This document shows, piece after piece, positions 7,436 to 43,785 of a DNA stretch of 56,018 nucleotides. Position 1 is the stretch's first letter; each line of letters begins with the position of its first letter. Origin of the DNA: a virus; the IMG/VR virus record IMGVR_UViG_3300046534_000888, positions 1-56,018 of that record; one strand, written 5' to 3'. The position numbers were made by a program, and so were the translations under genes. The notes below the pieces were generated by a model. The model searched no databases. It saw only the letters and a program-made list of their open reading frames with translations, and was not told where the DNA came from.

Positions 7436-7714
7436 CTATTTGACATTTATTTCTAAAGAGTTAAAGGATACATTGTATGCCTTAACTTCGTAACCTGATT
7501 CCCTAAAAGCACTATAAGCATTCTTATGGCGTTTAGCAAATTCATAAATAGTCTCGAGGTCATCAAAATCGATGCAATAAAACTCTCGGTCTCTATGACC
7601 TAACTCGATGTTTAGATCGCCATCACCATCAACGACGATATCGTTCGTAGTCCCAGGCACCAACTTGTCAAAGGGTATAGACTGTTCCAATTCCCTTTCT
7701 TCGTTAAAATTCAT
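7436..7714 (-). CDS. Unknown acidic protein, 92 aa
   Basis: Contains VVDGDGDLNIELG in the middle. Not recognised. It has its own promoter cassette upstream (7746-7774) with the usual GAGAAG leader. Its last codons have been copied into the block at 7331-7344. Confidence 0.75.
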   Translation of the reverse strand: MNFNEERELEQSIPFDKLVPGTTNDIVVDGDGDLNIELGHRDREFYCIDFDDLETIYEFAKRHKNAYSAFRESGYEVKAYNVSFNSLEINVK

Positions 7715-7745
7715 AATATGCGCTTCTCAATTAATTTATACATGT

Positions 7746-7774
7746 ATTATATCACGGTTATCGTGGTTTGTCAA
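7746..7774 (-). promoter_or_regulatory. Early promoter cassette
   Basis: TTGACA-N17-TATAAT plus ATACATGTAT, preceded by the conserved AT-rich upstream element (7790-7822, AACTAAAAGTTCTAAC...). It drives the 92-aa gene. Confidence 0.85.
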
Positions 7775-7823
7775 CAACTATTTCATAATTAGTTCGTATA
7801 TCGTTAGAACTTTTAGTTATATT

Positions 7824-15085: not shown

Positions 15086-15630
15086 TATAAAGACTCCAGT
15101 AATTCTTGTTTGGTTCGAAAAACATTGTCTGGGACGTTATTCCCATCTCGGAAGGTGTATTTAACAATTTTAATAATGTCGCCCGACACTGTGGAACGTT
15201 CAGTTATTACGCGCTGACCTATTTGTTTCGACGCGACCGCATTATCATTCATGAAGTAGACAATCTCGTAAATATGGAACATATCCGGTTCTGGTGTAGA
15301 TAACTCAATACCAACAATCGATTCCTCAGATACCGGCGCAGCTTCAATCAATTCAATGCGACCATCATAATCGTTATTCATAACCATCAAAACGAATATA
15401 ACTTCACCTACGCGAGACTTGCCATCCCGAAGCGTATTATGATCACCTGCAAAAAAATCAGATTCAACCTCAACTTCATAAGCTTTATTCGGTTCTGATA
15501 TACCAATGACACCAATGATACCAATGATAGTTCCCGTAATATAGGATATATCATTGAAGCCATCGAACGACCGGGCATCGAACGACCGGATTGTATCTCC
15601 GACCTTGAAGTTTGTAAAATCGTATGTCAT
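15085..15630 (-). CDS. Unknown protein, 181 aa
   Basis: First gene of an early operon, with a promoter cassette directly upstream. The N-terminal part (GDTIRSFDARSFDGFNDISYITG) resembles the 86-aa protein at 35503 (GTIIKAMDF...). It looks beta-rich and KOW/SH3-like, repeated once. Function unknown. Confidence 0.75.
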   Translation of the reverse strand: MTYDFTNFKVGDTIRSFDARSFDGFNDISYITGTIIGIIGVIGISEPNKAYEVEVESDFFAGDHNTLRDGKSRVGEVIFVLMVMNNDYDGRIELIEAAPVSEESIVGIELSTPEPDMFHIYEIVYFMNDNAVASKQIGQRVITERSTVSGDIIKIVKYTFRDGNNVPDNVFRTKQELLESL

Positions 15631-15661
15631 AATATAGGCTTCTCAATTAATTTATACATGT

Positions 15662-15690
15662 ATTATATCACGGACTATAGGGTTTGTCAA
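15662..15690 (-). promoter_or_regulatory. Early promoter cassette
   Basis: TTGACA-N17-TATAAT with ATACATGTAT, GAGAAG leader, and the conserved upstream element at 15696-15728. Heads the 15085-11556 operon. Confidence 0.85.
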
Positions 15691-15840
15691 CGACTTAGTT
15701 CGTATATCGTTAGAACTTTTAGTTATATGTCCATGCCGTCACAGAATACCCTTAATAATCGTTCTAGTTCCACGTCAGTGGCATAAAATGGGTCGAGTCG
15801 GCGTGGACCATTCCAGCACCGACTATTCTTACTTTATACA

Positions 15841-18850: not shown

Positions 18851-19060
18851 CTATTGTAGGAAAATTCCAATTGGGCTGCCCGATGTAACAGGACCTGCAG
18901 GACGAATATCTTTCTTTTGGGCCCAAGTCTTGGTTAATGATTCATCTTCGAACCACCCGATGGTGACTTCGTTAGCACTCATTTCAGTGATTTCACCAAA
19001 AGACGAGGCAATCATCATTCCCCAAACCCCCTTAACTTTCGTTCCAATTTCAATTTTCAT
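18851..19060 (-). CDS. Small SH3/KOW-like protein, 69 aa
   Basis: MKIEIGTKVKGVWGMMIASSFGEITEMSANEVTIGWFEDE: the spacing of glycine and hydrophobics suggests a small beta barrel of the KOW/SH3 type. First gene after the promoter cassette. Confidence 0.72.
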   Translation of the reverse strand: MKIEIGTKVKGVWGMMIASSFGEITEMSANEVTIGWFEDESLTKTWAQKKDIRPAGPVTSGSPIGIFLQ

Positions 19061-19091
19061 AATATAGGCTTCTCAATTAATTTATACATGT

Positions 19092-19120
19092 ATTATATCA
19101 TGGGTGTCTGGGTATGTCAA
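19092..19120 (-). promoter_or_regulatory. Early promoter cassette
   Basis: TTGACA-N17-TATAAT with ATACATGTAT and GAGAAG leader; upstream element at 19136-19168. A palindromic TGTCGAG/CTCGACA follows at 19165-19180. Confidence 0.85.
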
Positions 19121-19184
19121 CAACTATTTCAAAATTAGTTCGTATATCGTTAGAACTTTTAGTTATATGTCGAGTTCTCGACAC

Positions 19185-21724: not shown

Positions 21725-22951
21725 TTAACCCTTCACATTAATAACTTGATTCAATCGATATTTGATCTCAACTAAATCATCCTGTGCCGCCATTACAGCA
21801 CCTATATCTTTGTATGCTGCAGGACTTTCGTCAATCACATCAGCATCAAGTCGTGCTTCGATTCCCTTCATTGCGGTTGCATGATCATCCATGGAGATCA
21901 CTTTCTTAGCTTCGGTTCTTGACATAACCCGACCTGCGCCATGTGAACAACTACAGAAAGATTCCTTGCTACCCAGGCCTTCCACGATGAATGAGCCAGT
22001 ACCCATTGAACCTGGGATTATTCCCATATCACCAGTACGAGCACGCACAGCACCTTTTCTTGTCACCCATACATTAGAACCAAAATGATTCTCTTGGCTG
22101 ATATAGTTATGGTGACAGTTAACTGCACTATTCACAATTTGGAAATCGGTAAGATGCTTTCTTAACACACCCAACACAGACTCCATCATCAGTTCACGAT
22201 TGATTCGAGCGAAATCTTGTCCGAATAAAACCGCGTCAACATAGTCATCGAATATTTCAGTGCGTTCGACCAAATAGGATAAATCCTTATCTGGTAAGTA
22301 ACTATCGATATGATATCGCTCCATTTCTCTTTTTGCTTTGTCAATGAAATACATACCAATTCTGTTACCAACACCTCGTGAACCCGAGTGCAACATAACC
22401 CACACACTGTCGTTTTCGTCAAGACAAACTTCGATGAAATGGTTGCCAGTACCTAACGTACCAAGATGCGCCATTGTATTGAATGCTTTCGCTTTTGGGT
22501 GCTTCCCTATAATCTTATCATATCGATCGGACAATGAATTCCATGCTGATATGTGACTAACAGGTGATTTACTACCCCAACCGCCCTTATCATTACGACC
22601 ACCATTGTCGCTTCGACCGTGAGGTATCATCGATTCAATATGTGTTCGAATGTTATGAAGGTTATCTGGTAAGTCAGACGCGGTTAATGTAGTTTGTACT
22701 GCCATCATTCCGCAACCGATATCAACACCGACCGCGGCAGGAACAATAGCTCCTTTTGTCGCGATAACAGAACCGATTGTAGCGCCCATACCCCAGTGTA
22801 CATCAGGCATTGCAGCCACATGCTTATGAATGAATGGCAACTTGGCAATATTATGCAATTGCTCACGTGCTCTATCGTCTAATAAAACACCTTTTGTCCA
22901 ATGCTTGATTGGTGAACCATCAGTTTCTTCATATATAAAATTAGTTTTCAT
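21725..22951 (-). CDS. rtcB: RtcB-type RNA ligase
   Basis: 408 aa, full length. Motifs: MPDVHWGMGATIGSV (~48), VGVDIGCGM (metal-binding Cys), GTGNHFIEV, HSGSRGVG, NCHHNY, PGSMGTGS and CSHGAGRVMSR (the guanylylated His). RtcB joins 3'-phosphate (or cyclic phosphate) and 5'-OH RNA ends with GTP and Mn2+. In a phage with a tRNA array this most likely heals tRNAs cut by host anticodon nucleases (inference). Confidence 0.95.
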   Translation of the reverse strand: MKTNFIYEETDGSPIKHWTKGVLLDDRAREQLHNIAKLPFIHKHVAAMPDVHWGMGATIGSVIATKGAIVPAAVGVDIGCGMMAVQTTLTASDLPDNLHNIRTHIESMIPHGRSDNGGRNDKGGWGSKSPVSHISAWNSLSDRYDKIIGKHPKAKAFNTMAHLGTLGTGNHFIEVCLDENDSVWVMLHSGSRGVGNRIGMYFIDKAKREMERYHIDSYLPDKDLSYLVERTEIFDDYVDAVLFGQDFARINRELMMESVLGVLRKHLTDFQIVNSAVNCHHNYISQENHFGSNVWVTRKGAVRARTGDMGIIPGSMGTGSFIVEGLGSKESFCSCSHGAGRVMSRTEAKKVISMDDHATAMKGIEARLDADVIDESPAAYKDIGAVMAAQDDLVEIKYRLNQVINVKG

Positions 22952-23970: not shown

Positions 23971-24167
23971 TATGCTACAACTCCCAATTTCTCAGCCCAA
24001 AACCAAACTTGAAACAGGATGGAAGGGTACATAAAGATGAAAGTTGTAGGGCTAAGGATGCCAAAATGAGGCATACTTATTGAATTTCCGACCATGATCG
24101 ATAGGAATTTAATGAGTACGAGGATGCAGATAGAGGCGGTGAATACGAATGTCGCGGATAAAATCAT
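23970..24167 (-). CDS. Small membrane protein, 65 aa
   Basis: MILSATFVFTASICILVLIKF... and a second hydrophobic half. First gene after the promoter cassette at 24199. Confidence 0.7.
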   Translation of the reverse strand: MILSATFVFTASICILVLIKFLSIMVGNSISMPHFGILSPTTFIFMYPSILFQVWFWAEKLGVVA

Positions 24168-24198
24168 AATATAGTCTTCTCAATTGATTTGTACAACC

Positions 24199-24227
24199 AT
24201 TATATCATGGTTATTGTGGTTTGTCAA
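24199..24227 (-). promoter_or_regulatory. Sigma70-type promoter
   Basis: TTGACA-N17-TATAAT followed by the usual AATTGAGAAG leader; the palindrome is missing here. Confidence 0.82.
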
Positions 24228-24239
24228 CAACTATTTTCA

Positions 24240-24623: not shown

Positions 24624-24877
24624 TTCACGTCCTCGCAACGTATTAATCTTGGCTTGTGCCATCTTTCGTTAAATTTAGGTGTTACACCTTTATCAGATAC
24701 AACCCAATATTCATAACCACCCAGGCAAATTACTTCACTTTCATATTGAACATATGTGATTGGTTCGCGTTCTGCCTGTGGTTTTGGTTTGATTGTGTTA
24801 TCAACGAGAAGTACTACAACGGCTGCGATTATAATTGTACTAAGTCCGACGGCAACAACTGTTGCAATATCTTTCAT
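24620..24877 (-). CDS. Membrane-anchored protein, 85 aa
   Basis: MKDIATVVAVGLSTIIIAAVVVLLVD is one N-terminal membrane helix, followed by a soluble part with C...YEYWV. TAATG with the RNA ligase gene. Confidence 0.72.
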   Translation of the reverse strand: MKDIATVVAVGLSTIIIAAVVVLLVDNTIKPKPQAEREPITYVQYESEVICLGGYEYWVVSDKGVTPKFNERWHKPRLIRCEDVK

Positions 24878-25875
24878 TATAATAACTCCTGTGCGAAAAA
24901 CCACGTACGAGCCTTTGCAGATAATTTAGAACCAACATCTTTCATTGATAATCCATTTTCTTCAAGTACATCACTTTCTTCTTTGTTGATATCACTCGAT
25001 ACCCATTTGATAAAAGCACCCAGGTATTTTCGATCAAAATCTCGTATCGATGAATCGATACCTAAATCATAATCAGTGGTTATGGGTAACACTTCAACCA
25101 CGGCTTGTTCCAACCGATTTTCGGTCACGGCGTACTCCACAAAGGCATCAATTGATTCTAATCGTTCAACGTCAACAGGAGCGAGAGTCTTAACCTTGGA
25201 GATGCTATGCTTCTCACCTTTGATCTTGAATGAGATCATGACACCTTTTTCATCGATGTGTTCCCATACAACACCTTCACCGGTTCCTGATACACCGAAG
25301 AACTTGCCAACGGGACACTCATTTTCCACTTCTTCAGTGAGAGCGATCATTCCGTTCTGAGCCAGGGTAGGATTAGTAAAGTCGATATCGATTTGTCGAG
25401 TCCAGATTTGAGTTGCGTCGATGATACTGAGGTCGGGCTCCATCAGTGGCCTGTCTCGAACCCAGAAATCTTCGGAGGAGGCGTAATCCATAACTTTAAC
25501 GCCAAAGACATAAAAGAACTTTGAGACAGAAGACACAGCAACACCTTTTTGAATTCCCATACCTGCAAATTCACCGTATATTACGACGATATCACCTTCA
25601 AACGCCTCCCCGAGATTTTCTAGGTATCTTCTGTAATCGGTGAACCATTGCTTATGATCTTCAAGCCAATTAGCAAATCCAGCATTGTCGTTGTGGATAT
25701 CAAGAGTGTTGTTTCGGGATTGAGGTGTCATCGTGCCATCGGGGTGAATGACAACGGACGCATTAGTTCCATGAACTTTGACAGTTCCTGTGAAACGTAT
25801 GGTGGGTGTAGAGCCGTGTCGTGTAACGTCTTTGACGATATTTCGGTATTGCACGATAGATGGGTATTTGATCAT
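24877..25875 (-). CDS. ATP-dependent RNA ligase, Rnl2/RNA_ligase family
   Basis: 332 aa. Motif I TVKVHGTNAS (~32, Lys is the AMP site), motif III VIYGEFAGMGIQKG (~99), IV GEGVVW, V SFKIKGEKH. This is the arrangement of T4 Rnl2 and related editing-type ligases, with a helical C-terminal domain. It seals 3'-OH/5'-phosphate RNA ends, the reverse end chemistry to RtcB. It has its own promoter. Confidence 0.9.
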   Translation of the reverse strand: MIKYPSIVQYRNIVKDVTRHGSTPTIRFTGTVKVHGTNASVVIHPDGTMTPQSRNNTLDIHNDNAGFANWLEDHKQWFTDYRRYLENLGEAFEGDIVVIYGEFAGMGIQKGVAVSSVSKFFYVFGVKVMDYASSEDFWVRDRPLMEPDLSIIDATQIWTRQIDIDFTNPTLAQNGMIALTEEVENECPVGKFFGVSGTGEGVVWEHIDEKGVMISFKIKGEKHSISKVKTLAPVDVERLESIDAFVEYAVTENRLEQAVVEVLPITTDYDLGIDSSIRDFDRKYLGAFIKWVSSDINKEESDVLEENGLSMKDVGSKLSAKARTWFFAQELL

Positions 25876-25934: not shown

Positions 25935-26146
25935 CCTTTAAATTTGTCCATTAATAATGCACAGGGCGCATCTATGTACAATAATTGGGATTTGGCAACC
26001 TTTGGTTTTATATCCTTCGCACGAAACAATTGAACATTCAATCTTTCCAGAGCTTTAACGATTTCGTTTAATTCATCTTCGTCTCGAATACGAACACCTC
26101 GGAGGCTATCGCTAATATCATCAATGCGTTCTACTATCTTTTTCAT
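25931..26146 (-). CDS. Unknown protein, 71 aa
   Basis: MKKIVERIDDISDSLRGVRIRDEDELNEIVKALERL...: helical. ATGA overlap with the phosphoesterase gene. Confidence 0.7.
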   Translation of the reverse strand: MKKIVERIDDISDSLRGVRIRDEDELNEIVKALERLNVQLFRAKDIKPKVAKSQLLYIDAPCALLMDKFKG

Positions 26147-26937
26147 AATTCCACTCGCAGGTTAACATCAAATTTCTCGTTTAATTCATGAGGCCAGTAA
26201 CCGCGAGGGTTGCAGACGATTCGTGTCTTGGAGTCAGGCACCATTATATCATTTGATGAATGTGTATGTCCGTGAACCCAAAGATCAGGTTGCGTTTCCA
26301 TCATTTCAGGGTGCAATTCCGAGGCATAGGCGCCATTCAATGGGCTGCCTTGATGCTCATCCGCGATGCACATATAGCTAGGAAGATGATGTGATACCAC
26401 CACAGTCTTGTCAAAAATATTCTTTGCATTCCGAAGTTGATCGAATATGAAATCTCGTTGACGTCTATGAAGTGCCATGGTTTCGACAGGCTTTAACTTT
26501 CGTTGCCAAGGAGCATTGACAGGTCCTGTTCGTATACAGTTGTAATCATTCATGCTATATTCAGCGTCGGACATTAACAAAGGGTTTCCTTTATCCATAT
26601 CAGTCCACAATGTAGCACCAACAAAAAATACACCGTCAAGGACTATAACGTCTTCATCGAGTATATAAACGTTTGGAAGGTGAGCAATGTTATCATCGAT
26701 CTTTTTATAGACTTGCGGATAGTTTGCTTTATAGAATTCATGGTTACCGAAAACGTATAGCACATATTTGAATCGTTCAGAGCAAAGCGCGAGGAACTTG
26801 TGTACATGTTTGGCAAGATCGATATCACCGGCGAGTATAAGAGTTGACTCGTAGTCATCGAAATGGGCAGGAAAATTAAAGTCACCTGCGACCCTGTTAA
26901 ACTCAAGGTGCAGGTCGCTCATTATTCGGAATTTCAT
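26143..26937 (-). CDS. Calcineurin-like metallophosphoesterase
   Basis: 264 aa. Metal-binding motifs in order: MSDLHLE (~7), GDID (~37), GNHEFY (~64), VVSHH (~180) and HGHTH (~220). Such enzymes cut phosphoesters in nucleotides, nucleic acids or proteins; the substrate is not evident. Own promoter upstream. Confidence 0.9.
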   Translation of the reverse strand: MKFRIMSDLHLEFNRVAGDFNFPAHFDDYESTLILAGDIDLAKHVHKFLALCSERFKYVLYVFGNHEFYKANYPQVYKKIDDNIAHLPNVYILDEDVIVLDGVFFVGATLWTDMDKGNPLLMSDAEYSMNDYNCIRTGPVNAPWQRKLKPVETMALHRRQRDFIFDQLRNAKNIFDKTVVVSHHLPSYMCIADEHQGSPLNGAYASELHPEMMETQPDLWVHGHTHSSNDIMVPDSKTRIVCNPRGYWPHELNEKFDVNLRVEL

Positions 26938-27011: not shown

Positions 27012-27953
27012 TTATTTGTCGAAATCTCGTGACATAAGGGTATCTATGGGAATATTTGCGGAAATCCAACCCCATAGCTGTGTTTTAATCGCGATCATCT
27101 TGTTTACAGGCTTGCCAGGCTTCTTGAGCGTGAGATACTTGAAGTCCTTGATAGTGCCAAATATCTTCCCTTTTGACTTCCCACCACGGAACGGAGCATC
27201 AAGCCCTGCTCTACCACGTGCCTGGGTGCCACGAATATTCGCGGAAGGGTTGTCACCGGCAGATCGATAATCTTGACCATCATCAGTCTTGAAAAAGATT
27301 GTATTTTTCTGGTTGTTCAGAATAACATGAATACCGCCATTCATTCCAACAGGTATCTTATTCTTGTCAACTATATCCCACATTGTCGCCGCGGCACCAG
27401 AATGAGTTTCAAACATAATATCATCTGGAACTACTCGTTCGCGTGATGCATTCTGTTTAATCGCAATTTTATAATCTGTCAATACCCATACAAGATGAAC
27501 ATTGTTAGGATTATAACCTGAATCGTATAATTTAGGAAGTGCTTCATCGATTGCTTTAAGATTCTTGAGTGTCACATCGAACATCAAGTTAGGCAATCTT
27601 TCCTTGCTTGTTATAGCACCGAGCATAACATCGAGTGTCTTGTCCTTGATTCCTTTACTATCTACAAATTGGTGTAACTTGAAAACGTCTTCGGGATTCT
27701 TTAAATCCAAACCACGAATTTCAGGATACTTCTTCTTCAGCTTATCTATTTTGATAAACGCCAATTTCCATTCATCAACATCACGAACCTTGTAGTCCTG
27801 AGAGTTAATGAAGTTTGCAGCGGCGAATCCCTTACCGGAACCGGCACCACCAGCAAGAATCACGATTTGACCGTAACGTGCTCCATTATTGATAAGGAGT
27901 AGTTTCTCTTGAAGCTCTTGTTGTTCAACGAAGTGACTCTTAAATGATTTCAT
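27012..27953 (-). CDS. P-loop kinase-like (zeta-toxin-like) protein with capsid-targeting-like leader
   Basis: 313 aa. Starts MKSFKSHFVEQQELQEK. Walker A AGGAGSGKGFAA follows at ~35, with RDVDEWKLAFIK and NLMFDVTLKN placed as in zeta-toxin/polynucleotide-kinase-like ATPases. The C-terminal third is basic (FRGGKSKGKIFG). I recall relatives in marine T4-type phages. With the leader it may be a virion internal protein. Start by TGATG overlap. Confidence 0.75.
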   Translation of the reverse strand: MKSFKSHFVEQQELQEKLLLINNGARYGQIVILAGGAGSGKGFAAANFINSQDYKVRDVDEWKLAFIKIDKLKKKYPEIRGLDLKNPEDVFKLHQFVDSKGIKDKTLDVMLGAITSKERLPNLMFDVTLKNLKAIDEALPKLYDSGYNPNNVHLVWVLTDYKIAIKQNASRERVVPDDIMFETHSGAAATMWDIVDKNKIPVGMNGGIHVILNNQKNTIFFKTDDGQDYRSAGDNPSANIRGTQARGRAGLDAPFRGGKSKGKIFGTIKDFKYLTLKKPGKPVNKMIAIKTQLWGWISANIPIDTLMSRDFDK

Positions 27954-28246
27954 CAAACAAATCTATATAAACTGTGTATGATAGGGTCTGAACGAGTGTT
28001 AGCTAACATACTTTGAGTACCCTTCGCTTTAATGACTGCGTTAAGTTTATCCTTTTCTAATGTGGTGAGTTTAGATTTAAGCTTCTTCATTATGGCAACA
28101 GACTTGTCAAATCTTTCCTGATCGTCTTTACTCCAACCAGGCTGACCCCATTCTACTCGTCCATCACCCGCGACCAGGCTCGTGTCTTTATTGACTCCCA
28201 ATACTTCGGTCACGTATACATCTGCTAATTCTTTAACTGTTTTCAT
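27953..28246 (-). CDS. Unknown late-type protein, 97 aa
   Basis: MKTVKELADVYVTEVLGVNKDTS... then GDGRVEWGQPGWSKDDQERF and a helical end. The first residues are again MKTxKEL. Not recognised. Confidence 0.7.
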   Translation of the reverse strand: MKTVKELADVYVTEVLGVNKDTSLVAGDGRVEWGQPGWSKDDQERFDKSVAIMKKLKSKLTTLEKDKLNAVIKAKGTQSMLANTRSDPIIHSLYRFV

Positions 28247-30776: not shown

Positions 30777-30803
30777 CTCGTTTCCTAATCAATTTATACA
30801 TGT

Positions 30804-30832
30804 ATTATATCACGGCTATCGTGGTATGTCAA
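30804..30832 (-). promoter_or_regulatory. Early promoter
   Basis: TTGACA-N17-TATAAT with ATACATGTAT. Confidence 0.85.
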
Positions 30833-30841
30833 CAACTATTA

Positions 30842-31315
30842 TCACGAAAGATTTGATAGGGGTATTAAATTAGTTAATGGGAGGCATCTCAGGCCAATAC
30901 CCAATTCGATTGAGAATACGCGGTCAAGACGGTGTTGCTCGTCTGTCGTCTTACTATACCTATCGGCATAGTATACATCGATGATGCCTGACTGTCTCAA
31001 GTGCTTCAGGCACTGTCTACAGGGGGATAATGTCGTATACATCGTGCCATTGTCAATCGATATTCCTGCCTTGGCGGCGAATATGACAGCATTCATTTCC
31101 GCATGAATCTCATGATCGGCGCTCCAGGCTGAGTGTTCTGGGCCGCTCTCACAGTGTAAGTCGTCACAGTTGAGATATCCTTGAGGTGTTCCATTATATC
31201 CGGTCGATATGATACGATGATCTTTGACGATGATCGCTCCGACTTGAACCGAGACACAGTGAGACGCCTTGGAGACTTCCAGTGCTATTCTCATGAATTG
31301 ATTACCATTTATCAT
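30842..31315 (-). CDS. dCMP deaminase
   Basis: 157 aa. Zinc site HAEMNAV (~85) and SPCRQC (~109), with CDDLHC... and STGYNGTP upstream as in phage deoxycytidylate deaminases. It makes dUMP for dTTP synthesis. The end is close to the next promoter. Co-transcribed with several small genes upstream. Confidence 0.93.
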   Translation of the reverse strand: MINGNQFMRIALEVSKASHCVSVQVGAIIVKDHRIISTGYNGTPQGYLNCDDLHCESGPEHSAWSADHEIHAEMNAVIFAAKAGISIDNGTMYTTLSPCRQCLKHLRQSGIIDVYYADRYSKTTDEQHRLDRVFSIELGIGLRCLPLTNLIPLSNLS

Positions 31316-33410: not shown

Positions 33411-33440
33411 GATTAGGCTTCTCAATTAATTTATACATGT

Positions 33441-33469
33441 ATTATATCACGGGGACCACGCCATGTCAA
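33441..33469 (-). promoter_or_regulatory. Early promoter cassette
   Basis: TTGACA-N17-TATAAT with ATACATGTAT; degenerate upstream element 33493-33524; palindrome TGTCGAGATCTCGACA at 33530-33545. Confidence 0.85.
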
Positions 33470-33476
33470 CAACTAT

Positions 33477-33731
33477 TTACAGTTTTGATAGAATTAGTTC
33501 ATATATCGATATAATCTTTAAGTATATGGTGTCGAGATCTCGACATTGAATCCAATACAAAATTCCCACTGAAATTGCAATCACTACAACGATCTCTAAC
33601 AGTTTAACTGCGACGATGGCGAGGTAATACACCACAACAAGAGAGATAACGACTAAGATTGCAACTCCAACTGTCTCATATATCGACTGAACAATCTCAA
33701 TCACGTTTGGGTATATCCCGTTGGTATTCAT
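33477..33731 (-). CDS. Membrane protein, 84 aa
   Basis: Three hydrophobic stretches (VGVAILVVISLVVVYYLAIV, LLEIVVVIAISVGILYW and a C-terminal helix). The end overlaps the conserved upstream element of the next promoter. No clear ribosome site; translation may be coupled. Confidence 0.55.
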   Translation of the reverse strand: MNTNGIYPNVIEIVQSIYETVGVAILVVISLVVVYYLAIVAVKLLEIVVVIAISVGILYWIQCRDLDTIYLKIISIYELILSKL

Positions 33732-34620: not shown

Positions 34621-34905
34621 CTAGTAGTAATAACGTCGAGTGTCGTCAGTGTTCTCAAAGTTCCAACGACCAACCGCATCATTGAACTCATGAACTCCGA
34701 CAGTTGTGCCGAAACGAGATGATTCCATCGACTTGGCGTCGAGGTAATTGAAGCCAGAATAATTACCAGATTCATGTAGAACAAATTCAAGAGCGGCACA
34801 TTGACCGCGGCGCATTTCAACTTGATCATCCATGCCGTGAACCAAGCTGTGGTTGATCGAATCTTTAAGAGCTTGGACATTGAAGGTTTTGGTTTTTCTG
34901 GTCAT
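34621..34905 (-). CDS. Conserved phage protein, 94 aa (LHESGNYxGFNYL family)
   Basis: MTRKTKTFNVQALKDSINHSL...RRGQCAALEFVLHESGNYSGFNYL...RWNFENTDDTRRYYY. I recall similar T4-like early proteins. Its start and leader have been copied to 35253-35294. Confidence 0.78.
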   Translation of the reverse strand: MTRKTKTFNVQALKDSINHSLVHGMDDQVEMRRGQCAALEFVLHESGNYSGFNYLDAKSMESSRFGTTVGVHEFNDAVGRWNFENTDDTRRYYY

Positions 34906-34936
34906 AATATAGGCTTCTCAATTAATTTATACATGT

Positions 34937-34965
34937 ATTATATCACGGTTATCGTGGTATGTCAA
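34937..34965 (-). promoter_or_regulatory. Early promoter cassette
   Basis: TTGACA-N17-TATAAT with ATACATGTAT; upstream element 34979-35012. Confidence 0.85.
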
Positions 34966-34984
34966 CAACTATTTCAGAATTAGT

Positions 34985-35233
34985 TCATATATCGTTAGAA
35001 CTTTTAGTTATACGCGGCGTTTCGATGAATTCCTGTCTTTCGCCCTTTATCCATTCCCATACTGATGGTCTGTTCCATAGTCCTACCAATTTAGTATGAT
35101 GGGTAAAGGTGCTATTGGCCTTATCGCCGCAACGAGGACAGACGCCTTCAGATGAATGCCATTCATCTTGGTTTAACCATTCCCCAGTAGTTGGACAGAT
35201 TTTGACACTGCTATAATTGGTATCTAGTTCCAT
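34985..35233 (-). CDS. Small zinc-type protein, 82 aa
   Basis: KICPTTGEWLNQDEW...GVCPRCGDKANSTFTHH: one Cys plus CxxC and a His pair suggest a zinc ribbon. Its ATG lies within the copied leader peptide region. Confidence 0.7.
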   Translation of the reverse strand: MELDTNYSSVKICPTTGEWLNQDEWHSSEGVCPRCGDKANSTFTHHTKLVGLWNRPSVWEWIKGERQEFIETPRITKSSNDI

Positions 35234-35765: not shown

Positions 35766-36095
35766 TTATCGTCCCATTTCAATTAACATTTCGACTTCAA
35801 GGCTGTCGTCGGGTAACACACCAGATGTTGGTGTTGTATCAAGATCGCGGCCTGTGTTCCAGAGTTCCAGTTCCGCTTCGAGTCGTTCGATTTTAGAAGC
35901 GATGCTTTCGTCGGTGATCAATAACGAGGTTTTCCAATTTACGTCCTTATCAGTGAATTCGAGAATCGCGGCACGCGAATCAGCGAACCGATCACCTGTA
36001 GGTGTAATTTGACTGAACCCAATTGCACCGCCAATAGCACGACCATTGTCATTTGCATCATAAATGGCGTATTTGACTGTAGTTGATGTTTTCAT
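35766..36095 (-). CDS. Unknown protein, 109 aa
   Basis: MKTSTTVKYAIYDANDNGRAIGGAIGFSQITPTGDRF..., C-terminal helix. First gene after the promoter at 36127. Not recognised. Confidence 0.72.
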   Translation of the reverse strand: MKTSTTVKYAIYDANDNGRAIGGAIGFSQITPTGDRFADSRAAILEFTDKDVNWKTSLLITDESIASKIERLEAELELWNTGRDLDTTPTSGVLPDDSLEVEMLIEMGR

Positions 36096-36126
36096 AATGT
36101 AGTCTTCTCAATTAATTTATACATGT

Positions 36127-36156
36127 ATTATATCATGGGTACCCATGATATGTCAA
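36127..36156 (-). promoter_or_regulatory. Early promoter cassette (18-base spacer)
   Basis: TTGACA-N18-TATAAT with ATACATGTAT; upstream element 36180-36215. Confidence 0.8.
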
Positions 36157-36215
36157 CAACTATTTTCAGTTATTATAGAATTAGTTTGTATATCGATATA
36201 ACTTTTAGTTATATA

Positions 36216-36313
36216 CGGGAGTTTTGATTAGCTTGAATAGAGCAGGGTGATTACCCACGACCCATGAAGTATGCAGCGTACTCAGTTATGCTTGGAGTGT
36301 GCTATATGATACA
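36216..36313 (-). other. Non-coding stretch resembling the 8043 and 41455 elements
   Basis: On the minus strand GGGTAATCACCCTGCTCTATTCAAGCTA recalls GGGGATAACCCTGCTAGAATCAAGCTA at 8043-8128. No gene. It lies between a 33-aa frame and a promoter cassette. Confidence 0.35.
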
Positions 36314-36415
36314 TTATTGCCAAATGCAGTATTGGTAAGCAGAGGCAGCAGCTTGGCATGCTTGAAGGGAATAGAATTGGGCGATAGCTACGCCGTTGCT
36401 TATCAAGTAGTACAT
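36314..36415 (-). CDS. Possible small protein, 33 aa
   Basis: MYYLISNGVAIAQFYSLQACQAAASAYQYCIWQ; TAATG overlap with the upstream TM gene argues for translation. The hydrophobic start with two cysteines could be exported. Low certainty. Confidence 0.4.
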   Translation of the reverse strand: MYYLISNGVAIAQFYSLQACQAAASAYQYCIWQ

Positions 36416-36639
36416 TAGTATTTTCCTAGGATAGGGCACGAGAGTTCGGCCAGTTCGATCTTCAATTGGATGATTTCATGCATTTTGGTTTGTTCGACGC
36501 GAAGGCCGCCAATTTCGACACTCATTGTCTGTAGTTCCTGATTCTGTTCATAATATCCATACCCGAAAAGGGCTGATAATATAACAAACACCACCATTGG
36601 CTTCTTGACTAACAATTCTATTATGTCTTTATATTCCAT
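36415..36639 (-). CDS. Late membrane/coiled-coil protein, 74 aa
   Basis: One membrane helix (KPMVVFVILSALFGYGYY, ~12-29) and then a coiled coil. Late promoter 23-30 bases upstream. The layout (late, inner-membrane anchor, coiled coil, partner of a tiny overlapping gene) resembles a spanin or holin-accessory protein, but I cannot prove it. Confidence 0.65.
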   Translation of the reverse strand: MEYKDIIELLVKKPMVVFVILSALFGYGYYEQNQELQTMSVEIGGLRVEQTKMHEIIQLKIELAELSCPILGKY

Positions 36640-36661
36640 AGATAACTCGAGGTTGTTCTAT

Positions 36662-36669
36662 TATTTATA
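36662..36669 (-). promoter_or_regulatory. T4-type late promoter box
   Basis: TATAAATA just after the tmRNA coding piece; serves the 74-aa gene. Confidence 0.7.
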
Positions 36670-36673
36670 ATAA

Positions 36674-36832
36674 GGTCACCTTGGGTAATAAGGCGTGACC
36701 AACCTCAGATGGAGCCTAAGCCGCCATCATGTAAACGTTGTCATTTGCGTTTATATTTTTCTTATCTTTTAACGTGAATAACCACGCATTGTCAGTTTAT
36801 CTTCGGGACGATATCGATTCCAAGTCATCCCC
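36674..36832 (-). ncRNA. ssrA: Permuted tmRNA, coding piece with tag ANDNVYMMAA
   Basis: Starts GGGGATG, which pairs over 7 bases with CATCTCC of the acceptor piece. Next comes ACTTGGAATCGATATCG, matching the tmRNA D-loop region, and then a CGTG/CACG hairpin. AAAAATATAAAC precedes a reading frame GCA AAT GAC AAC GTT TAC ATG ATG GCG GCT TAG (36748-36716): tag ANDNVYMMAA, close in form to E. coli ANDENYALAA. A GGTCAC/GTGACC helix follows. CCGA and ACAATG can pair with TCGG and CATTGT of the acceptor piece (helix P2). Confidence 0.88.
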
Positions 36833-36926
36833 ATCAAAAACACTTTTATCATCTATCCCCGATGACTTCAGCCCAAAGACATAACGTTGTGTCTATATTG
36901 GGTTAGCTCGACAGCAAGAGTGCTTA
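36833..36926 (-). other. Probable internal spacer of the permuted tmRNA
   Basis: Lies between the CCA of the acceptor piece and the GGGG of the coding piece. In known permuted tmRNAs this spacer is cut out to leave two RNAs. It contains no gene. Confidence 0.7.
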
Positions 36927-36990
36927 TGGTGGAGATGGCGGGATTCGAACCCGCGTCTACCGACCTATTTTCTACTTCATACAATGATTT
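36927..36990 (-). ncRNA. ssrA: Permuted tmRNA, acceptor piece
   Basis: On the minus strand GACGCGGGTTCGAATCCCGC then CATCTCCACCA, nearly the E. coli tmRNA 3' end. It lies upstream of the coding piece in transcription order, so the gene is circularly permuted. CATTGT (36981-36986) and TCGG pair with the coding piece. It begins directly after the stop of the 65-aa gene. Confidence 0.88.
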
Positions 36991-36994
36991 AAAA

Positions 36995-37192
36995 CTATTT
37001 CTCTTGATTTAAAACCATTTCTTTGATGTCACACGAACCACGAACCCAAGGAATACCTTTGGTTCTGAGACCTTCCATTGTGTATTCAGGGTTATGGCCT
37101 CGTTCAGGGTTACGGCCTCGATATTCAGTCTCACCGACCATGATCTTATGACCATTTTTAAAACTTCTTTCTTTCTGATTCATCTGATTCAT
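36995..37192 (-). CDS. Unknown protein, 65 aa
   Basis: MNQMNQKERSFKNGHKIMVGETEYRGRNPERGHNPEYTMEGL: tandem MNQ and GxNPE(R/Y) repeats, mirrored by short DNA repeats. Lies directly before the tmRNA and probably shares its transcript. Confidence 0.6.
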   Translation of the reverse strand: MNQMNQKERSFKNGHKIMVGETEYRGRNPERGHNPEYTMEGLRTKGIPWVRGSCDIKEMVLNQEK

Positions 37193-37227
37193 CACTAATT
37201 ACCTATATTATCATTACATTAATTGAC

Positions 37228-37297
37228 CGCAAGCTAGGGAATCGAACCCCAGTTTTCAGCTTTGGAGACTGACGTGTTACCACTACACTAACATTGC
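37228..37297 (-). tRNA. tRNA-Trp(CCA)-like, away from the array
   Basis: Good D-arm (GTGTAGTGGTAACAC), anticodon stem TCAGT/GCTGA with loop CTCCAAA, and T-arm TGGGG TTCGATT CCCTA. The acceptor stem pairs over only about 4-5 bases and no CCA is encoded. It may be decayed. Confidence 0.55.
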
Positions 37298-38736: not shown

Positions 38737-38985
38737 TTACTTCATTTCACATTTAAAAGATTCCTTTAAATGTGATTCAATTTGTGATCTATGCAATATT
38801 CCAATATCGCGTAAAATACTATCTGGTAGCTTCTCAACTTCACGTAGCGCCTTACGATATCTTAGATGGCATACGAATCTTTCAGTTAGCGCCTTGATTT
38901 TGCTTGTGATGGGTTGTATCAATCTGGTTAAATTACTGTTCGTGACATATACAATGTAAGCGAAAGCACCAATAGTTGTTCTCAT
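38737..38985 (-). CDS. DUF1127-like protein, 82 aa
   Basis: Residues ~40-70 (LRYRKALREVEKLPDSILRDIGILHRSQI) match the DUF1127 (YjiS-like) pattern of cellular small proteins. Bacterial DUF1127 proteins have been linked to small-RNA and phosphate metabolism. In a phage it may mimic or block the host protein (inference). Confidence 0.75.
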   Translation of the reverse strand: MRTTIGAFAYIVYVTNSNLTRLIQPITSKIKALTERFVCHLRYRKALREVEKLPDSILRDIGILHRSQIESHLKESFKCEMK

Positions 38986-41145: not shown

Positions 41146-41355
41146 TTATTTTTCTCTTAATAAGATGTTGTAAGTATCCCACAATTCTTGGTCAGTGATC
41201 ATATCAGGTACACTATAATTCCAATTCCATCTGTCACTAAAGCCACCAGTGAATGAACCCATTAATTGCAATGTTTCAGATTCCATTGCCTCGTATGGTA
41301 CAAAGGAACCTTTAACTAAGGCGATAAGATCATTTCTGTTCAATTCAATTTTCAT
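41146..41355 (-). CDS. Small phage protein, 69 aa
   Basis: MKIELNRNDLIALVKGSFVPYEAMESE...GGFSDRWNWN: a pattern seen in many phage early proteins (memory). Own early promoter; co-transcribed with the topoisomerase gene. Confidence 0.75.
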   Translation of the reverse strand: MKIELNRNDLIALVKGSFVPYEAMESETLQLMGSFTGGFSDRWNWNYSVPDMITDQELWDTYNILLREK

Positions 41356-41386
41356 AATATAGGCTTCTCAATTAATTTATACATGT

Positions 41387-41415
41387 ATTATATCACGGCC
41401 AATGACCGCTGTCAA
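41387..41415 (-). promoter_or_regulatory. Early promoter cassette
   Basis: TTGACA-N17-TATAAT with ATACATGTAT; divergent upstream element 41421-41452. Confidence 0.85.
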
Positions 41416-41454
41416 CAACTTAGTTCATATATCGTTAGAATTAGTTGTTATAAC

Positions 41455-43349: not shown

Positions 43350-43648
43350 ACTGCAACAACCTTGAAAACGGTGAACATTTTAAATGCCCAATCATCAATC
43401 GTTGGTGACGCACGATCATGAAGATCATGAAGATACAACGACTGAGGTTTATCAATCGATTCAAAACCGATTCGTGTTGCATCGTCAGTGTCCTGTTCGT
43501 ATTTTAATGCGGCACGTTCTGCCGTAATACGTGAATAGAAAACACCGACAAGGTCGTTTGTGTCAACGGTACGAACGGTGTAGGTTCGTGTGAATTCAAC
43601 CATTGTTTCTTTCAATTCAGTTTCTGTCATATTGTATTGGTTTGTCAT
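43346..43648 (-). CDS. Unknown protein, 100 aa
   Basis: Start MTNQYNMTETELKETM (GAGAAG upstream). Contains VRTVDTNDLVGVFYSRITAERAALKYE. Overlaps the topoisomerase start by ATGA. Confidence 0.72.
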   Translation of the reverse strand: MTNQYNMTETELKETMVEFTRTYTVRTVDTNDLVGVFYSRITAERAALKYEQDTDDATRIGFESIDKPQSLYLHDLHDRASPTIDDWAFKMFTVFKVVAV

Positions 43649-43677
43649 ATTGGTCTTCTCGATTAATTTATACATGT

Positions 43678-43706
43678 ATTATATCACGGGTCATGGTCAC
43701 TGTCAA
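43678..43706 (-). promoter_or_regulatory. Early promoter cassette
   Basis: TTGACA-N17-TATAAT with ATACATGTAT; a longer upstream element at 43717-43764 holds two copies of its end (GTTATAT). Heads the topoisomerase large-subunit operon. Confidence 0.85.
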
Positions 43707-43763
43707 CAACTAAATTCAATTAGTTGTAGAACTTGCAGTTATATCGTTAGAACTTTTAGTTAT

Positions 43764-43785
43764 ATGGCACAATCCATGTGCCATA
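43764..43785 (-). terminator. Hairpin at operon end, possible terminator
   Basis: TATGGCACA and TGTGCCATA pair around TGGAT, between the stop of the 89-aa gene and the promoter cassette. No U tract follows on the minus strand. Confidence 0.4.

Follow-up and report, generated by a model that had tools for sequence, protein, structure and literature searches.

The window, a 56,018-nucleotide stretch of DNA that is a 56-kb virus fragment with phage sequence on both flanks of the locus studied here, harbors a gene for a two-piece tmRNA that is genuine, though divergent. This permuted ssrA gene has its core on the minus strand at 36674-36986, where it is recognized by ARAGORN, RF04321 and the beta_tmRNA model. 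ARAGORN called a permuted tmRNA (tmRNA*) in the window at 36625-37019 with the tag ANDNVYMMAA. The Rfam model RF04321 (tmRNA_permuted) matched over its full length at 36986-36716, with 106 bits and E = 1.1e-19 against a curated cut-off of 47 bits. The alpha_tmRNA model (RF01849) gave 55.5 bits, above its cut-off of 50, and beta_tmRNA (RF01850) gave 83.9 bits at 37026-36665 against a cut-off of 84. By model score the gene is nearer to the beta than to the alpha type, yet only the alpha model passes its cut-off. Matches of this kind are far beyond what chance would give. An earlier note had read this DNA as a phage-encoded permuted two-piece tmRNA with the same tag, and ARAGORN, Rfam and covariation are all in agreement with that reading. 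Every element that it listed is found on the minus strand and in the order given, with the acceptor piece first, then the intervening sequence and then the coding piece, as is characteristic of the permuted form. No riboswitch family reached its Rfam cut-off within the window.

The acceptor piece (36927-36986, minus strand, as are all elements of the gene) contains the 3' strands of P2, the T-arm (36954-36938), the 3' acceptor strand CATCTCC (36937-36931), and the discriminator A with the CCA end (36930-36927). The 3' acceptor strand pairs over seven bases, as had been claimed, with GGGGATG (36832-36826) at the start of the coding piece, and is followed by ACCA. The stem includes a G3-U70 pair in the window copy. 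G3-U70 is the AlaRS identity pair, by which tRNAs are marked for alanine, and it has been described as completely conserved in tmRNA (PMC3985003). A 94-nt intervening sequence (36833-36926) separates the two pieces, and its ends are paired through AAGCACT (36925-36919) and AGTGTTT (36844-36838), prolonging the acceptor stem. It terminates in TTTTTGAT ahead of GGGG, like the other phage copies, and is presumably excised.

The coding piece (36674-36832) begins with GGGGATGA, the 5' acceptor strand, and ends in a predicted 3' pseudoknot. Its D-loop-like region is GGAATCGAT, where most copies have GGTTTCGAC. In E. coli tmRNA the nucleotides A15, U17, C18 and G19 contact or support SmpB (PMC8363625); reading the window against that study, the D-loop keeps the equivalents of all four. 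The tag frame (36716-36748) is short, running from the resume codon GCA at 36748 to the stop codon TAG at 36716, and encodes ANDNVYMMAA with its C-terminal AA. A putative PK1-like pseudoknot at 36762-36786, comprising CGTG/CACG (36786-36783 / 36776-36773) and TTATT/GATAA (36781-36777 / 36766-36762), was read from the window sequence by itself. The predicted 3' H-type pseudoknot (36674-36707) would be formed by TGAGGT/GCCTTA (36707-36702 / 36694-36689) and GGTCAC/GTGACC (36700-36695 / 36679-36674). Its core TGAGG/CCTTA is common to two viral contigs (L016 and L023) whose second stems differ, and the window pseudoknot taken singly is weak evidence, as 2 of 40 shuffles score equally.

To assess the structure we aligned 13 permuted tmRNAs, namely the window copy, 11 copies from viral contigs and that of the phage record L001, and scored the acceptor stem, two P2 helices, the T-stem and the intervening-sequence stem. 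Standard pairs occupy 96.9% of the cells for the five helices in the 13 sequences, with 57 double-sided changes in all, distributed over 17 of 30 pairs. None of 500 shuffles matched the observed pairing, and controls in which the strands were slid were 42-48% paired. Both of the P2 helices that join the two pieces covary. P2a pairs CGGTA (36958-36962) with TATCG (36813-36809); all five pairs are formed in all 13 sequences (100%), with double-sided changes at every pair. P2d pairs CATTGT (36981-36986) with ACAATG (36792-36787), and compensatory variants are found in other phages as GGTTGT/ACAACC, AACTGT/ACAGTT and GATCGT/ACGATC. The earlier note had proposed CATTGT/ACAATG, which is confirmed, together with CCGA/TCGG, which was misregistered; the overlapping CGGTA/TATCG fits better, being paired in 13 of 13. 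Single-sequence folding was not decisive (z = -1.56), and the case for the structure rests on the covariation.

The gene lies between conserved neighbors. On the minus strand the order is tRNA-Trp (CCA) at 37228-37297, a 66-aa ORF at 36995-37195, the tmRNA, then TATAAATA at 36662-36669, a motif resembling a T4-type late promoter that lies immediately downstream, and a 74-aa ORF at 36415-36639. The tRNA-Trp and the 74-aa ORF form the conserved left and right borders of a variable site, the latter being 72-76% identical in relatives. The 66-aa ORF has no family match, no PHROGs relatives, and no match in the record of the nearest relative. That relative (L008, 198,785 bp) was found in a gp39 search that gave relatives at 85-86% protein identity, its own gp39 being 86% identical. 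There, a hairpin with a T-run comes immediately after the tRNA-Trp, and then TATAAATA and the 74-aa ORF homologue. The window shows synteny with this record on both sides of the tmRNA, and a second relative (L007) has the same arrangement at the site. Searching the whole 198,785 bp gave 22 tRNA matches and no tmRNA, either with the model or with a T-arm pattern allowing three mismatches. Because the nearest relatives lack the tmRNA but have the same neighbors, it is a strain-variable accessory gene and not a core one, and its absence from the closest known relatives of the phage is a new observation. The earlier note had held that a failure of the two pieces to be conserved together in related phages would refute it; this is partly what is seen, as the closest relatives are without the whole gene. 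A megablast search with 24 kb of the window found no near phage, searches with gp52 and UDP-glucose dehydrogenase found no further relatives spanning the site, and blastn of the tmRNA matched phage records in the T-arm region only.

The surrounding genes are those of a T4-type phage. The window codes for T4-type topoisomerase subunits (gp39 and gp52, with a phrog_543 match of 2.7e-203), ribonucleotide reductase, PhoH, RtcB, RNA ligase and DNA ligase, together with 24 tRNA genes identified by ARAGORN, and the TATAAATA motif occurs 12 times against 5.1 expected. Hints of the host diverge, with gp52 (43% identical to that of Aeromonas T4-like phages) leading to gammaproteobacterial phages, and RtcB to alphaproteobacterial ones. 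A small protein at 38737-38985 on the minus strand matches DUF1127 weakly (1.5e-4, slightly short of the Pfam cut-off) and is a possible further hint of the host; to our knowledge DUF1127 is unusual in a phage. A dispersed repeat of approximately 50-110 bp, mostly intergenic and common to the relatives L006-L009, occurs at 7710-7814, 15625-15727, 19055-19169, 24164-24232, 30788-30878, 33413-33531, 34892-35012, 36083-36287, 41350-41454 and 43640-43767. Repeated early promoters with leaders occur in some T4-type phages, and these repeats are possibly of that kind.

Two-piece tmRNAs in phages are already known, and the gene in the window is a well-supported further example. The earlier view that a permuted form in a T4-type phage is unusual does not stand, since one has been published in Melnitz, and a permuted tmRNA is also present in Stenotrophomonas Menderavirus (L001, OR797040.1) and in Xanthomonas phage X1 (L030). 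A 2022 survey found the two-piece form in 53 of 133 unique phage tmRNAs and reports one from the T4-like Melnitz; Pelagibacter phage Mosig and others also have a two-piece ssrA (PMC9004378). Melnitz shares with the window the permuted form in a T4-like myophage, but its copy is of the alphaproteobacterial type with a glutamine riboswitch predicted in the 3' domain (PMC9004378), whereas the window copy scores higher with beta_tmRNA than with alpha_tmRNA. A 2025 tmRNA database lists 79 unique sequences from bacteriophages, counting all forms (PMC11915505). Our pattern searches of viral contigs gave 17 distinct loci; ARAGORN called a permuted tmRNA in 16, a few of which are near-identical copies. 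The Menderavirus gene (beta_tmRNA, 92.1 bits) resembles that of the window in being permuted, in lying among tRNA genes and in having the same P2 and intervening-sequence design, but its tag is VAANDDSYTVRIAA and the mature parts are 59% identical. There ssrA lies beside the ribonucleotide reductase genes, and the topoisomerase large subunit of PHROG 543 was not found in that phage. Compared with the Rfam families RF04321, RF01850 and RF01849, the window gene differs in its phage location and its divergent D-loop. Some of the Stenotrophomonas phage records (L001 and other blastn matches) annotate the permuted tmRNA; others leave it unannotated or label it tRNA-OTHER. Most gammaproteobacterial hosts have a one-piece tmRNA, and the forms of phage and host may therefore differ.

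The copies closest to that of the window are those of four viral contigs (L016, L017, L020 and L023), at 61-65% identity. Their spacers are 56-68 nt in length, compared with 94 nt in the window, and their tags are, in the same order, ANDNVWALAA, ANDEKFALAA (read by eye), ANDSVYDVALAA and ANDLQFALAA. For L017 (3671-4053) ARAGORN gives a 24-residue tag; the conserved frame is ANDEKFALAA, and the program call looks wrong. In a 349,660-bp contig (L005, 320-1384) two tRNAs with CUA anticodons adjoin a permuted tmRNA whose tag frame stops at TGA. Amber recoding is possible there, although the TGA stop is not telling alone, as the L023 tag also stops at TGA.

How might the phage use this RNA? The gene probably provides a tmRNA that is matured by the host, charged with alanine, bound by SmpB and able to rescue ribosomes on cleaved mRNAs during infection. 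The transcript would be processed by host tRNA-processing enzymes, with RNase P cutting at GGGG and the CCA end being made by tRNase Z or exonucleases. Once the spacer had been lost, the acceptor RNA and the coding RNA would stay joined through their acceptor and P2 pairs. Once charged with alanine, this complex would be bound by host SmpB and EF-Tu and enter ribosomes stalled on cut mRNAs. Alanine followed by ANDNVYMMAA would be added, the ribosome released, and the peptide marked for a protease that reads a C-terminal AA. The benefit to the phage would most likely be the recovery of ribosomes while host and phage mRNAs undergo cleavage. Neither the 56-kb fragment nor any of 16 other phage or viral records, several of them fragments, yielded an SmpB, which makes host SmpB the likely partner. 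Growth of lambda immP22 in E. coli requires trans-translation, mainly for ribosome release (PMC2862035), and phages can therefore need the process. On the basis of that requirement and the likely partnership with host SmpB, we favor ribosome rescue over proteolytic tagging, a decoy function or passive carriage. Points against it are that the host presumably has a tmRNA of its own, that no SmpB came to light in the phage records searched, that the nearest relatives manage without the gene, and that the copy is highly divergent.

Roles in both ribosome rescue and tagging are plausible and have been proposed for phage tmRNA (PMC9004378). If tagging were the chief function, the RNA would direct host proteins or unfinished ones to proteases and so serve amino-acid recycling or remodeling of the host, perhaps with a phage ClpP-like protein. 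We consider this rather unlikely, although it was suggested by the Melnitz authors (PMC9004378) and the tag terminates in AA. In the window an ORF on the minus strand at 44071-44631 matches Pfam CLP_protease (3e-9), with Ser, His and Asp aligned with the ClpP catalytic triad, and lies next to an exonuclease and PhoH. However, the same block of genes is present in the relative that has no tmRNA, and phage records with a relative of the ClpP-like gene number 1,658. The two genes are thus not coupled, and we have rejected the idea of a linked module. The dependence of phage on trans-translation in E. coli, moreover, is exerted mainly through ribosome release (PMC2862035).

More speculatively, and with a similarly low probability, the tmRNA could be a swappable, infection-specific accessory sited between tRNA-Trp and a late gene, evolving fast under a structure that is kept. 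It would enable the phage to outlast a defense that cleaves mRNA or tRNA, or would retag proteins in a phage-specific manner, together with the RNA-repair ligases and the ClpP-like protease. The window has genes on the minus strand for RtcB ligase (21725-22951), RNA ligase (24877-25875), a P-loop protein of the Zeta-toxin type that may be a kinase (27012-27956), and a metallophosphoesterase (26143-26937). Together they are a possible RNA-repair set, and the phage is rich in tRNA genes.

No other copy in the comparison is as divergent as that of the window, which has a mean identity of 0.586 and the longest end branch (0.85); its position in a tree of 15 copies lacks support (38/52). Such divergence, and the lack of the gene in the nearest relatives, would be expected of a recently acquired passenger or a decaying copy with no function in the phage. 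Thirteen of 83 near-invariant columns are altered in the window copy. Four of these make up both sides of two P2a pairs, with A-U replacing G-C and G-C replacing U-G, so that the changes compensate. That the most divergent copy compared nevertheless has its P2 changes compensated is a new finding. Decay would leave uncompensated breaks, but every stem is intact and the tag frame open, and we regard carriage of a functionless gene as unlikely.

It is improbable that the RNA is a competitor of host trans-translation, occupying host SmpB or ribosomes and lowering host tmRNA activity. The tag-less tmRNA of mycobacteriophage DS6A has been suggested to act as such a decoy, and tmRNA is strongly inhibited by a molecule comprising only the tRNA-like domain, which may titrate SmpB (PMC4131195); the divergence of the window copy would also be in keeping with this. 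Yet the copy retains its tag frame, resume codon and stop codon, as well as a predicted 3' pseudoknot, all of which would be needless for a pure decoy. Finally, an assembly chimera of phage contig and bacterial ssrA is very improbable: the gene is known from one metagenomic record, with no exact copy in a second phage from pattern searches of viral contigs, but L008 and L007 have the tRNA-Trp and the 74-aa ORF in collinear positions on either side of the site, and two scans of the bacterial genomes of the collection found none with the D-loop stretch or the tag pattern.

This locus bears upon the reason that some lytic phages carry a tmRNA. It offers a natural comparison between two T4-type relatives with the same neighboring genes, one with a tmRNA and one without. 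In combination, the strong divergence and the retained pairing show that phage tmRNAs can change and yet keep their structure, and so speak for use and against passive carriage.
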